From Actinobacteria bacterium IMCC26103 (lineage in GTDB: Bacteria; Actinomycetota; Actinomycetes; Nanopelagicales; Nanopelagicaceae), in NCBI GenBank assembly GCA_002284875.1, contig CP015604.1:868001-932000 (forward strand): a stretch of 64,000 nt of DNA, read 5' to 3'. Shown here in pieces: positions 42,173 through 46,609 of the stretch; position 1 is the stretch's first letter, and each line of letters begins with the position of its first letter. The notes under the pieces were generated by a model that was given only the letters and a program-made list of their open reading frames with translations, was not told the origin of the DNA and made no database searches. Both the position numbers and the translations under genes were made by a program.

Positions 42173-42178
42173 ACTATA
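42173..42178 (-). promoter_or_regulatory. internal -10 box of the DUF3043 gene
   Basis: TATAGT on the minus strand ends 7 bases before the ATG at 42165, overlapping the last codons of nadA. Confidence 0.4.
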
Positions 42179-43337
42179 GGGCGAGCATCTGCTCGAGAGC
42201 CAACTTTGAGAAGCGAGCGGTCTCAGGATCAACCTTGATCTGATTGACCACATGGCCCGCTACAAGCGATTCCATCGCCCACACCAGGTGAGGCAGATCA
42301 ATTCGGTTCATAGTTGAGCAATAGCACACTGTCTTATCCAAGAAGACGATCTCTTTATCGGGATGGCTATTGGCTAATCGAGAAACCAAGTTCAACTCTG
42401 TTCCGATCGCCCACTTGCTGCCAGGCGGTGATTGTTCAACAGCGCGAATGATCGCTTCTGTACTACCAACTACATCGGCTATTGAAACGACTTCATTCTG
42501 GCATTCTGGATGAACTAGGACTTTCACTCCGGGAAGGCGTTTGCGTACTTCATTTACTGATTCAACGCTAAAGCGTCCATGCACCGAACAGTGACCGCGC
42601 CATAAAATAACTTTGGCAGCCTGTAATTGTTCGGCAGTCAATCCGCCCATAGGTTTCCATGGATTCCACAGAACACAATCTGCGAGGGTAAGGCCAAGTG
42701 AGAGCACTGCAGTATTGCGGCCAAGGTGTTGGTCTGGCAGGAAGAGAATTTTTTCACCTTGAGTAAAGGCCCATTCCATACTCTTCTTGGCGTTAGAAGA
42801 AGTACAAATAGTCCCGCCATGTTCACCAGTAAAACTTTTAATCGCAGCCGATGAATTCATGTAAGTAACTGGAATCGTTTTATCTGCGATACCAATTGCC
42901 GAAAGTTGGCTCCAGCATTCCTGCACTTGATTAGCGGTTGCCATATCAGCCATGGAACAACCAGCTGCCAGATCAGGCAAGATCACCTTTTGCCGAGAGG
43001 AAGTTAAAATATCGGCGCTTTCTGCCATAAAGTGAACGCCACAGAAAATTATGTATTCTGCCGATGATTGTGCGGCTGCTGCTTGAGCTAACTTAAATGA
43101 ATCACCGGTTATATCTGCAAACTCGATTACTTCATCGCGTTGATAGTGATGCCCTAAAACGAGAGCACGATCACCTAACGCAGCGCGGGCGATACGAGCG
43201 CGGGAGACTAGTTCAGGATCGCTGGCTGCAGGTAGTTCACCTGTACAGGAGACGCCACGTTCTGATTCCAGATCAAGACCTCGGCCAAGTAGCAGCAGAT
43301 TCGTCAAGGACCCGGTTTGGGATGTGGACATAGCCAC
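42174..43337 (-). CDS. nadA: quinolinate synthase
   Basis: An iron-sulfur enzyme that makes quinolinate from iminoaspartate and dihydroxyacetone phosphate in NAD synthesis. At 387 residues it is of the long actinobacterial type. Visible are VLGHHYQRDEVIEFADITGDS, CGVHFMAESADIL, TSSNAKKSMEW and the last cluster region VCYCSTMNRIDLPHLVW. Three conserved cysteines hold the 4Fe-4S cluster. The start is GTG 43337, or ATG 43331 with GAGAAT 6 bases upstream. nadB and nadC are not in the window. Confidence 0.93.
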   Translation of the reverse strand: MAMSTSQTGSLTNLLLLGRGLDLESERGVSCTGELPAASDPELVSRARIARAALGDRALVLGHHYQRDEVIEFADITGDSFKLAQAAAAQSSAEYIIFCGVHFMAESADILTSSRQKVILPDLAAGCSMADMATANQVQECWSQLSAIGIADKTIPVTYMNSSAAIKSFTGEHGGTICTSSNAKKSMEWAFTQGEKILFLPDQHLGRNTAVLSLGLTLADCVLWNPWKPMGGLTAEQLQAAKVILWRGHCSVHGRFSVESVNEVRKRLPGVKVLVHPECQNEVVSIADVVGSTEAIIRAVEQSPPGSKWAIGTELNLVSRLANSHPDKEIVFLDKTVCYCSTMNRIDLPHLVWAMESLVAGHVVNQIKVDPETARFSKLALEQMLAL

Positions 43338-43398: not shown

Positions 43399-43767
43399 AT
43401 GACAACTGAGACAACCACAACATCGTCCGAGACATCAATCTCAACTTCAATTGCACTCACCGATGTTGCCGCCGCCAAGGTAGCCGCACTTCTAGCGCAA
43501 GAAGGTCGTGATGATCTCTACCTGCGCGTTGCTGTGCAGCCTGGTGGATGTTCTGGGCTTCGTTACCAGCTCTATTTTGATGATCGTAACCAAGAAGGCG
43601 ATATCGCCCGCGAATTTGGTACGGTAAAAGTTGTTGTAGACAAGATGAGCGATCCATACCTAATGGGCGCAACTATCGATTTCGTTGACACTATCGAGAA
43701 GCAAGGATTCACTATCGATAATCCACAAGCGCAGGGTTCTTGCGCATGTGGCGATTCATTTAATTAA
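43399..43767 (+). CDS. erpA: iron-sulfur cluster insertion protein (HesB/ErpA type)
   Basis: An A-type carrier of 122 residues that delivers Fe-S clusters to apoproteins. The three conserved cysteines are present: VQPGGCSGLRYQLYFD, and the C-terminal QGSCACGDSF. The N-terminal 20 residues are Thr/Ser-rich and probably disordered. Its neighbours nadA and the respiratory Rieske protein are Fe-S clients. The same neighbourhood occurs in Streptomyces. Confidence 0.92.
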   Translation: MTTETTTTSSETSISTSIALTDVAAAKVAALLAQEGRDDLYLRVAVQPGGCSGLRYQLYFDDRNQEGDIAREFGTVKVVVDKMSDPYLMGATIDFVDTIEKQGFTIDNPQAQGSCACGDSFN

Positions 43768-43792: not shown

Positions 43793-44773
43793 ATGAAAAT
43801 TGGTGTTGCAGGTTCTGTAGGCCTTGACCATTTGATGACATTTTCCGGCAAATTTACCGATTCACTGGTTGCCGGATCACTTGAAAAAGTTTCGTTATCT
43901 TTCTTAGTTGATGGACTCGAAGTCCGACGCGGGGGATGCGCGGCAAATATTGTCTATGGCATGGGCGTCTTGGGTTTAAATCCAATTCTGATTGCAGCAG
44001 TTGGAATTGACTGGCCTGATTACGATGCGTGGCTAGTTCGACATGGCGTTGATACTTCTCACGTCTTGGTCTCAAAGACTTTGCATACCGCGCACTTCAT
44101 GGTCACAACTGATACCGAACTAAATCAGATTGCCTCATTTTTTCCAGGTGCGATGTCGGAGGCGCGTAATATTGAGTTAGCCCCAATTATGGAGAAGACT
44201 GGAAAGCTGGATTTACTTGTTATTTCACCGGATGATCCGGAAGCGATGTTGCGCCACACCGAAGTCGCCCACCAGATGGGAATTGCAATCGCAGCCGATC
44301 CTTCCCAGCAAATGGCTCGGATGAGCGGTGAAGAAATTAAGCAACTCGTAACTGGTGCCACTTACTTATTTCTAAATGAATATGAACTGGCGCTTGCAAT
44401 CCAAAAGACAGGGTGGAGCGATCGCGAAATTTTGGAGAAAGTTAAATATCGCATCGTGACCTTAGGTTCAGATGGTGCACGCGTTGAATCAGTCGCTGGC
44501 GAAACGATAAAAATTGGTTGCCCAAAGGAGAAAGGCAAAGTTGATCCAACCGGAGTCGGCGATTCATTTAGATCTGGGTTCGTTGCCGGCTTAGCTTGGG
44601 GGCTTAACCACGAACGATGTGCACAATTAGGTGCGATGATCGCGACTTATGTAATTGAGACAACTGGCACCCAGGAATATCGTTTTACAAAGGCAGAATT
44701 TTTAGCACGCTTTAGCGAAGCTTATGGTGCTACTTCTGCTGCAGAGATTGAACCGCATCTAACAACGCGGTAA
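43793..44773 (+). CDS. PfkB-family kinase (adenosine kinase-like)
   Basis: A 326-residue carbohydrate or nucleoside kinase of the ribokinase fold. GGCAANIVYGMGVLGLNP is the first PfkB signature, and the ATP-site block VDPTGVGDSFRSGFVAGLAWG carries the catalytic Asp. The equivalent gene at this position in mycobacteria (Rv2202c) is an adenosine kinase, which is the best guess. Its 3' end overlaps the convergent cysteine-desulfurase-like gene by 44 bases. Confidence 0.85.
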   Translation: MKIGVAGSVGLDHLMTFSGKFTDSLVAGSLEKVSLSFLVDGLEVRRGGCAANIVYGMGVLGLNPILIAAVGIDWPDYDAWLVRHGVDTSHVLVSKTLHTAHFMVTTDTELNQIASFFPGAMSEARNIELAPIMEKTGKLDLLVISPDDPEAMLRHTEVAHQMGIAIAADPSQQMARMSGEEIKQLVTGATYLFLNEYELALAIQKTGWSDREILEKVKYRIVTLGSDGARVESVAGETIKIGCPKEKGKVDPTGVGDSFRSGFVAGLAWGLNHERCAQLGAMIATYVIETTGTQEYRFTKAEFLARFSEAYGATSAAEIEPHLTTR

Positions 44774-45818
44774 TTAGCCCATTAATTTCAGATTCAGAAG
44801 TTTTTGGATGAATTGCGATTCGAATATTTCCATTAGTAGGAAGCCCCATAGCTGCTAAAACATGGCTCGGTTGCAGATTCATTGCCGTACAAGCCGATCC
44901 GGAATCGACGGCAAATCCCTTAGTCGCTAGAGCACGTAAGATTTCCTCACCATTCGTACCCGGAAATATCATTGAAAGTAGATGTGGCATCGATTTGTCG
45001 AGATCTCCGGCAATTAGGGCATTTGGTACTGCTGTGGTGATGGCACTGCGTATTTTCTTGTTCTGATTTCGGATCAAATCTGTATCTTCTTCAAAATTCT
45101 CCAAAGCAACCGCACTCGCTAGCAATAACGGAAGTGAATATGTGCCGTAGGTGCGACGGACGCTAGAGATATGGGGGAGCGGATTCTTCCATTGTGCAGA
45201 ATTTGCAATCGCGACAATGGCCAATCCAGCGGGTCCGCCCCATGCGCGAGAATCAAAAGCTGCGCTGTCCCATCTTGCAGGCAGTGCCACTCGAGAGCCA
45301 GATGCGGTGGCATCTATTGCGATTAGCAGATCTTTGGGAAGTTGCTCAGGTAGCGAATTAATCGCCCCACTTTCACCATTGGCCAATTGGAGAGCCAGAA
45401 TAGAGTTCGCCTCGATCGCAACTCTTCCAAAATCTAATCGTCCATCTTCTCGCAACGGAATCTCTTTGATTACACCTATATGAGAACGCACCGTGGCGAT
45501 GACTCCGCTGCGATCTCCGGCGCCAAAATATAAATTTTTTTCCGGGTTAAGAAATCCGGCTAACGATAGAAAGTAACTAAGTCCAACTTCGCCGGTAATT
45601 TCGATCTGGTCGACGCCCAGTCCCAATCGATGAGAAATCGATTCCAGTGCGTTATTTCTTAATATCGCCGCTTTGCTGGGGTTTTGTCCGATCTTCTTGG
45701 GATCAGCCCAGCCAGAGTCGAAGGCAGCCAGCAGCGCTTCTTGAGCCAGTGGATTTAGCGCTGTCTCTGCTTGGAAATTTCCTGTGACTGGAACCACGCC
45801 GCGAACGCTACTAGCCAA
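44730..45818 (-). CDS. cysteine desulfurase-like pseudoenzyme (class V aminotransferase fold)
   Basis: A 362-residue protein with the NifS/IscS fold. The Cys loop is intact: DSGSACTAMNLQPSHVLAAMG. The PLP lysine of the usual FSGHKLYGPKG is replaced by Ala in FDSRAWGGPAG. The His that stacks on PLP is lost (AGDRSGVIA where IscS has a TEHKAV-type motif), and the cofactor-binding Gln is Ala in IDATASGSR. It should not bind PLP covalently or desulfurate cysteine by the standard route. Its place next to ctaC is conserved with Streptomyces. The start is TTG at 45818, the only in-frame option. Confidence 0.75.
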   Translation of the reverse strand: MASSVRGVVPVTGNFQAETALNPLAQEALLAAFDSGWADPKKIGQNPSKAAILRNNALESISHRLGLGVDQIEITGEVGLSYFLSLAGFLNPEKNLYFGAGDRSGVIATVRSHIGVIKEIPLREDGRLDFGRVAIEANSILALQLANGESGAINSLPEQLPKDLLIAIDATASGSRVALPARWDSAAFDSRAWGGPAGLAIVAIANSAQWKNPLPHISSVRRTYGTYSLPLLLASAVALENFEEDTDLIRNQNKKIRSAITTAVPNALIAGDLDKSMPHLLSMIFPGTNGEEILRALATKGFAVDSGSACTAMNLQPSHVLAAMGLPTNGNIRIAIHPKTSESEINGLITALLDAVQSLQQK

Positions 45819-45843
45819 GGAGCGGATGAGGGAAATGCAGCAC

Positions 45844-45849
45844 TATCCT
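45844..45849 (+). promoter_or_regulatory. -10 box of the ctaC operon
   Basis: TATCCT ends 7 bases before the ATG at 45857. Confidence 0.45.
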
Positions 45850-45856
45850 TAGCCAT

Positions 45857-46609
45857 ATGTCCGTCAAATCAGCCCGCCCATTAATGCGGGCGCTTCTTTT
45901 AGCGCCGATTGCCTTGCTACTGACAGGCTGCGCCAAAGTCTCTGGGCTTGGGTTTGAAGAAGGTATTACCAGCGTAAATGACACTTCACTATCTCTCTGG
46001 CAAGGCGCCTGGATTGCCGCAGGTGTCGTCGGTGTATTTACTTTAATTTTAATTCTATGGCCGGCGATCTTCCATCGCGCCAAAGTTAGCAATGGAGAAT
46101 TTCCAAAGCAGACTCAATACAACATTCCAGTTGAAATCGCCTACACACTAATTCCATTTATTATCGTGGCCGTTCTCTTCTATTTCACAGCGGTCAAAGA
46201 ACATAAGATCACCGAAAAGACGACTACGTATTCGCACGAGATTAAAGTTGAAGGAATTCAATGGTCATGGCAATTTGCCTATCCTGAAGCTGGCGCGAAA
46301 GCAGTCGTAACAGGAACTCCTGCCTATCCTCCCACCCTCTACGTCCCACTTGGCGAAAAAGTTCGCTACACGATCACCTCCAACGATGTAGTTCATGGGT
46401 TCTGGATTCCGGCGTTCATGATTCAAATGCAGAATCTGCCTGGCGTTACCAATCACCTGGAATTTACGGCTAATAAGCTCGGAACATATCCAGGACGTTG
46501 CAATATTCTCTGCGGTCGTAATCACTCTCAGATGCTTTTTAATGTAAAAGTCGTTACCCCAACCGAGTACAAGGCATATCTAGAGACTCTGAAGGCGAGT
46601 GCAGCATGA
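45857..46609 (+). CDS. ctaC: cytochrome c oxidase subunit II
   Basis: The CuA-bearing subunit of the aa3 oxidase, 250 residues. A lipoprotein-like signal peptide ends [11 protein letters not shown]. Two membrane helices follow, then a periplasm-side cupredoxin domain. The CuA ligands are in [10 protein letters not shown] (His) and [16 protein letters not shown] (two Cys, His, Met). It accepts electrons from the QcrC cytochrome in actinobacterial supercomplexes. ctaD follows with a 4-base overlap. Confidence 0.95.

Follow-up and report, generated by a model that had tools for sequence, protein, structure and literature searches.

The open reading frame at 44730..45818 on the reverse strand of the window (the whole 64,000-nucleotide stretch of DNA analysed) encodes a cysteine desulfurase-like protein that carries alanine in place of the PLP-binding lysine and retains a complete cysteine loop. 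To judge from its residues, the PLP pocket has been dismantled; the sulfur-bearing cysteine and part of the substrate pocket stayed. The lysine-less state is fixed in the window's family as far as read, the lysine-bearing form being the rule elsewhere, and loss of the lysine has apparently been repeated in separate lineages. The locus comprises the following features.

42174..43337 (-), nadA-like gene, presumably quinolinate synthase, bounding the locus at its far end
43399..43767 (+), ErpA/IscA-type Fe-S carrier gene, above the TIGR00049 cut-off and just below the ErpA cut-off
43793..44773 (+), PfkB-family kinase gene, tail-to-tail neighbour with a 44-bp overlap with the 3' end of the desulfurase-like gene
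44730..45818 (-), lysine-less cysteine desulfurase-like ORF, 362 aa from TTG
44730..45797 (-), the same gene read from the GTG at 45797-45795, probably its true start, 355 aa
44859..44903 (-), cysteine loop SGSACTAMNLQPSHV with Cys310 (codon 44889-44891)
45225..45257 (-), FDSRAWGGPAG, former PLP-lysine motif with Ala192 for Lys (relatives: SAHKWGGPAG)
45805..45810 (-), TAGCGT, -10-like box 7 nt before the GTG of the desulfurase-like gene; probable leaderless promoter
45844..45849 (+), TATCCT, -10-like box 7 nt before the ctaC ATG
45857..46609 (+), divergent neighbour that we take, following the earlier note, to be ctaC, cytochrome c oxidase subunit II

The gene, its start and its cofactor site

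The window ORF is real and encodes a predicted class-V aminotransferase-fold protein, matching Pfam Aminotran_5 at 28.6 bits against a cut-off of 21.5. Profile matches identify the IscS/NifS cysteine desulfurases as its nearest kin. A profile built from close relatives matched solved cysteine desulfurases over almost the entire chain (best E 6e-27), with 4R5F and 4EB5 as the top two matches, and the curated NCBIfam equivalog cut-off was missed (best FeS_nifS, 80 bits vs 530.75). An AlphaFold2 model of the lysine-less protein from a 20-row alignment reached a mean pLDDT of 53.3 and a pTM of 0.41, too low to give a usable structure.

The TTG at 45818 is probably the wrong start and the GTG at 45797-45795 the true one, because upstream of the GTG close relatives show CTG (L013) or an in-frame TAG (L019, L061 and L063), and the GTG, at codon 8 of the ORF, is common to them. 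Both the desulfurase-like gene and the divergent ctaC are probably leaderless, since a TANNNT box sits 5-8 nt before the starts in most loci. For the lysine-less gene this holds in 76 of 91 loci (residue aligned), compared with 15 of the 923 start-type codons that lie inside these genes; 75 of 94 ctaC genes have the same TANNNT N5-8 start layout. The window boxes stand back to back within 45795-45859, as TAGCGT N7 GTG for the desulfurase-like gene and TATCCT N7 ATG for ctaC. No two-hexamer sigma-70 promoter was found in a scan of 45700-45950, and the promoter reading therefore rests on the conservation of one box. Near the ctaC start, at 45872-45892, a stem followed by a T-rich stretch resembles a terminator (two overlapping hits vs 0.2 expected), but it is probably a chance occurrence within coding sequence. 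At the other end of the gene, the tail-to-tail overlap with the PfkB-family gene (44730-44773) also occurs in close relatives, for example L009 and L010.

Alignment to the genome's own intact IscS places Ala192 at the PLP lysine, Arg103 at the stacking histidine and alanine at the cofactor glutamine, with Asp/Arg/Gly at the phosphate-binding Ser/His/Thr positions; the cysteine loop is complete. The earlier note had described an ORF with just this combination of a lost lysine and a kept loop, and its description is borne out. The residue roles used here (stacking His, cofactor Gln, phosphate-binding Ser/His/Thr and so on) are those of E. coli IscS. Lys206 and Cys328 of IscS and Cys19, Asp45 and Asp51 of TusA are as given in PMC2854127.

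Across 96 lysine-less rows, the lysine is retained in none, the stacking His and Thr76 (phosphate) in 5 each, Ser203 in 6, His205 in 1 and Gln183 in 2. The Cys328 equivalent, Asn155, the Glu of the NNE motif and Asp180 are kept in all 96, Arg354 in 93 and the His of PSHV in 95. The Asn155 and Arg354 equivalents are presumably the substrate-carboxylate pair. All 48 lysine-bearing orthologues have the cysteine as well. With the PLP residues mostly gone, the sequences support the earlier view that this is probably not a PLP-dependent desulfurase. The change of Gln to Ala that was cited alongside is real but uninformative alone, as 16 of the 48 lysine-bearing orthologues also lack the Gln183 site residue. 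The Thr243 site is another poor witness, being non-Thr in most lysine-bearing rows too (Phe in 35/48).

Cys310 is the only conserved cysteine of the lysine-less proteins. A role as a copper scaffold, raised in the earlier note, found no support: Cys310, the His of PSHV and the Met of AMG form a pattern found alike in ordinary, lysine-bearing desulfurases. Asp now stands at the Ser203 position in 77 of the 87 family rows, and members of three of the remaining four lysine-less groups have it too. In 76 of the 87 family rows a basic residue at site 103 goes with an Asp at site 189. A salt bridge between Arg103 and Asp189 might fill the empty pocket, but we do not claim one, since in other groups the Asp appears with no basic residue to pair with.

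Spread, age and recurrence of the lysine-less state

Genomes were searched at four ranks, 61 in the genus, 121 in the family, 151 in the order and 197 in the class. The loci taken from them gave 168 matches, reduced to 150 by removal of near-copies and to 144 full-length, non-redundant orthologues after six shorter than 300 aa were dropped. Ninety-six lack the lysine, 87 in the clade of the window's family (f1, whose named members are Candidatus Nanopelagicaceae) and nine elsewhere. The 48 lysine-bearing orthologues include none from the window's family and make up 48 of the 57 non-family rows. Eighty further family stretches, taken without near-copy screening, were also read. Nine stop short of the lysine position and nine short of the cysteine position; at each position the remaining 71 lack the lysine (0/71) and keep the cysteine (71/71).

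These counts rule out a recent loss in the window's copy, as 87/87 full-length family rows and 71/71 further stretches are without lysine; all family rows being alike, the loss is old. They also support treating the family's lysine-less proteins as a putative pseudoenzyme clade with defined limits, the outcome that the earlier note had proposed to look for in an alignment of homologues beside ctaC. That note would have counted a lysine in most relatives as a sign of recent loss. Most relatives outside the family do carry it (48/57), whereas none inside does, and the loss is old and apparently repeated.

A tree of five adjacent proteins from 58 loci (L123 and L146 omitted; L135, L152 and L166, the window itself, entered without a lysine label) requires five changes of lysine state, each forced by branches with SH-aLRT of at least 95. 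The lysine-less groups on it are the window's family, f33 with f40, f29 with f34, f22, and f23. Forcing all lysine-less rows together cost 229 log-likelihood units (p-AU 1.3e-47). The gene's own tree, for which 34 of 68 family-coded lysine-less rows were used and 19 named lysine-less loci were omitted, gave four state changes. A single origin is thus rejected on the neighbour genes; on the gene's own tree a single lysine-less clade survives the test (p-AU 0.40). As the latter is indecisive, the case for repeated change rests on the neighbour genes and on the gene staying in place. We infer that the lysine is the ancestral state, because it and the other PLP residues match ordinary IscS; the change counts themselves give no direction.

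A phylum-wide search returned 30 loci. Outside the class, L216, L217 and L224 carry SGHK and a TusA match nearby; for many other such loci the motif pattern gave no reading, and we draw little from them. From these three, which belong to the same phylum but other classes, a desulfurase-TusA pair may predate the class. Two scans of viral contigs found no more relatives.

The gene keeps its place, as had been proposed. Divergent ctaC lies within 600 bp in 94/94 lysine-less and 44/46 lysine-bearing loci in which ctaC was found. Between nadA and ctaC the ORFs read as erpA, a pfkB-type gene and the lysine-less gene itself, with no IscU among them. The ctaC and erpA neighbourhood is common to the lysine-bearing relatives, and it therefore says little about the lysine-less protein; the proximity to ctaC and erpA that had been offered as a clue to function loses its force. 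Two draft genomes each hold two differing loci of ctaC and a desulfurase-like gene (L154/L155 in G072 and L164/L165 in G138), which may reflect a mixed bin.

TusA linkage, constraint and function

Of the 48 lysine-bearing rows, 45 have TusA either no more than 267 bp away on the same strand or fused to the gene. The two share one reading frame in three of these, all from f19 (which we take, from gene order, to be Streptomyces), and both of those scanned contain the Pfam TusA domain. Among the lysine-less rows TusA is found within 120 bp in 44 of 96 and is absent from the other 52 loci; 48 of the 50 TusA-less loci with pfkB in view have no room for it. The family sample has TusA at 60 places in 59 of its 121 genomes, and 60/60 lie 6-130 bp from the lysine-less gene; in the genus sample 9/9 TusA places adjoin it. 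Pairing is not universal outside the family, as in f34 three genomes that possess the desulfurase-like gene, namely G339, G347 and G354, have TusA on another contig. The acceptor cysteine of the Cys-Pro-x-Pro motif is present in 44/44 TusA partners of lysine-less proteins and in 44/45 partners of lysine-bearing rows, the remaining one being a truncated match. A second TusA cysteine, in a Trp-Cys pair, is found in 45/45 lysine-bearing partners vs 7/44 lysine-less partners (e.g. L054, L055 and L070). In E. coli, TusA Cys19 docks ~4 Å from the IscS loop Cys328 and TusA accepts sulfur from that cysteine (PMC2854127).

A loop cysteine, a co-inherited TusA and the lack of a PLP site are most simply explained by a persulfide carrier or docking partner. 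Our leading reading, held with somewhat less than even confidence, is that the window protein is a PLP-free pseudo-cysteine desulfurase, probably a persulfide carrier or docking protein charged from elsewhere. We hold it no more firmly because the cysteine is kept without TusA: all 52 TusA-less loci retain it, so TusA cannot be the sole reason for its presence. The lysine-less protein would not bind PLP, we infer, and Cys310 would carry a persulfide and pass its sulfur on. An actinobacterial IscS/NifS-type desulfurase working with TusA may have lost its PLP site no later than the base of f1 (Nanopelagicaceae), with separate losses in other actinobacterial families if the neighbour-gene tree is followed. 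Selection would have preserved the cysteine loop together with some residues of the substrate pocket (Asn, Glu, Asp and Arg). By the most likely mechanism, Cys310 would then accept sulfane sulfur made elsewhere, supplied by the cell's intact IscS or SufS or by a small persulfide, and either hold it or hand it to an acceptor, which would be TusA where the tusA gene remains.

An ability to hold or relay sulfur, suggested in the earlier note, thus fits the TusA linkage. No TusA match was found in the window's genome; TusA is gone there, and any acceptor would be a different one. Further points count against the carrier reading. The second TusA cysteine has been lost in 37/44 partners of lysine-less proteins and 0/45 of lysine-bearing ones, the gene evolves faster and is dispensable (see below), and its own tree leaves a single lysine-less clade standing. 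More speculative still, and in our view rather doubtful, is a general rule by which desulfurases repeatedly become PLP-free sulfur carriers (about five times in one class, given an ancestral lysine), with nothing kept but the cysteine loop and the substrate-carboxylate pocket. With TusA, such a carrier would form a relay that receives its sulfur from a different desulfurase or from free persulfides, and in streamlined genomes the carrier would outlive TusA.

The main rival is an Archaeoglobus-type role, in which the cysteine would act as a ligand aiding Fe-S cluster formation on a scaffold or carrier protein, either the neighbouring ErpA or SufU, and no sulfur would be supplied. By analogy, A. 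fulgidus IscS, with a natural Asp for the lysine, is reported to be inactive as a desulfurase and to contribute a Cys ligand to the cluster on IscU (PMC7585200, PMC9769115). The ErpA/IscA-type gene in the same locus and the retention of the cysteine without TusA are consistent with such a role. The partner gene at the locus is TusA, however, and not IscU, and the erpA neighbourhood is shared with lysine-bearing relatives rather than specific to the lysine-less form. We consider this explanation unlikely, if the most serious of the alternatives.

A regulatory or structural pseudoenzyme is also improbable in our estimate. It would bind intact IscS or SufS, TusA or a small molecule and alter their activity, with the cysteine loop as a docking surface. 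Potential targets exist: the window's genome (1.46 Mb, one contig) encodes two intact desulfurases elsewhere, both with SGHK, namely an IscS with an MnmA-like ORF as its neighbour and a SufS accompanied by SufU- and SufC-like ORFs (the MnmA, SufU and SufC labels come from reading the ORFs). Retention of the pocket Asn, Asp and Arg without the PLP binders suits this idea, and dispensability would fit a modulator. A docking surface alone, on the other hand, does not predict an absolutely invariant cysteine (96/96).

Selection on the lysine-less gene is purifying. Its dN/dS is 0.075-0.178 (16 pairs) vs 0.008-0.046 for pfkB (15 of the same pairs), which agrees with the earlier argument against simple decay. 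Relative to pfkB, the median rate ratio was 2.65 for lysine-less (45 pairs) vs 1.25 for lysine-bearing genes (58 pairs), about twice as fast; the lysine-less within-family pairs were the usable 45 of a random draw of 60 and share branches, so that a p-value for this difference is not independent evidence. The gene is therefore constrained, though less than before. It is also lost: 27 of 61 genus genomes, many of them incomplete, gave an IscS-level match only or none, as a result of which we regard the gene as dispensable, and 3 of 13 single-contig genus genomes are without it. Among 25 genomes chosen for lacking the gene, 24 loci (L173-L195 and L197) have a pfkB-ctaC gap of 86-146 bp, against a 1323-bp median in loci that contain the gene. 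At L060 (G051, 1474-2671) the gene is split over two reading frames, through either a broken copy or an assembly error, and L263 (G121) and L270 (G120) each have one in-frame stop within the matched stretch, which may lie ahead of the true start.

Slow decay would account for several of these observations. A desulfurase made redundant by IscS and SufS would be leaving streamlined genomes together with TusA, in keeping with the missing copies, the faster evolution, the absence of TusA from 52/96 lysine-less loci, the frame-broken copy in G051 and the stops in L263 and L270. Against this stand the low dN/dS, the cysteine in 96/96 rows and 71/71 further stretches, the -10-like box in 76/91 loci, and persistence across the family and four further lysine-less groups; we judge decay to be distinctly unlikely. 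Least credible, and very improbable, is a PLP-independent enzyme whose retained Asn/Arg carboxylate site would bind an amino acid such as cysteine persulfide while Cys310 does the chemistry: the Asn155 and Arg354 equivalents are kept (96/96 and 93/96) and a new Asp stands at the phosphate Ser (77/87 family rows and members of three of four other lysine-less groups), but Asn, Asp and Arg may be structural, and we know of no precedent for an enzyme of this kind.

Significance and comparison with known systems

Pfam places the protein with class-V aminotransferases beside true desulfurases, and lysine-less members could be miscounted as sulfur donors. This would affect metabolic models of the abundant freshwater acI bacteria; by sequence these members cannot do desulfurase chemistry. 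Loss of the PLP site with the cysteine untouched would mean that evolution has parted the half of a desulfurase that carries sulfur from the half that works with PLP, and the natural TusA-bearing and TusA-free versions are ready test pairs. Titles and opening lines of abstracts, in sources lying mostly outside the subscription journals, described no actinobacterial lysine-less, TusA-linked or ctaC-linked desulfurase among the matches listed. As far as these literature listings could tell, the recurrence, family-wide fixation and TusA coupling are new; a lysine-less IscS-type protein was already known.

That precedent for a PLP-free IscS-type protein is the IscS of Archaeoglobus fulgidus (4EB5), which, like IscS1 of Methanosarcina acetivorans and the window protein, has an IscS-type fold with the PLP lysine replaced. 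It keeps the loop cysteine and is reported to have no desulfurase activity (PMC7585200, PMC9769115). The Gln site of 4EB5 reads DATAS, resembling DATASG in the window protein; the solved 4R5F chain, apparently the Archaeoglobus protein with its lysine restored, has Lys where 4EB5 has Asp. The archaeal protein pairs with IscU and retains the His in VEH, whereas the window's family has TusA as partner or none. Unlike it, the lysine-less actinobacterial proteins have lost nearly all PLP residues, with five changes of lysine state on the neighbour-gene tree.

E. coli IscS shares the fold and cysteine loop of the window protein but binds PLP through Lys206 and generates persulfide by itself. Another close counterpart is the cysteine desulfurase-TusA fusion or pair of Actinomycetes, an orthologue at the same locus by ctaC and usually pfkB with the same cysteine loop. 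It has its own lysine, the stacking His and SAHK, and a two-cysteine TusA adjacent or, in the three f19 rows, fused, whereas the window copy has neither the lysine nor TusA.
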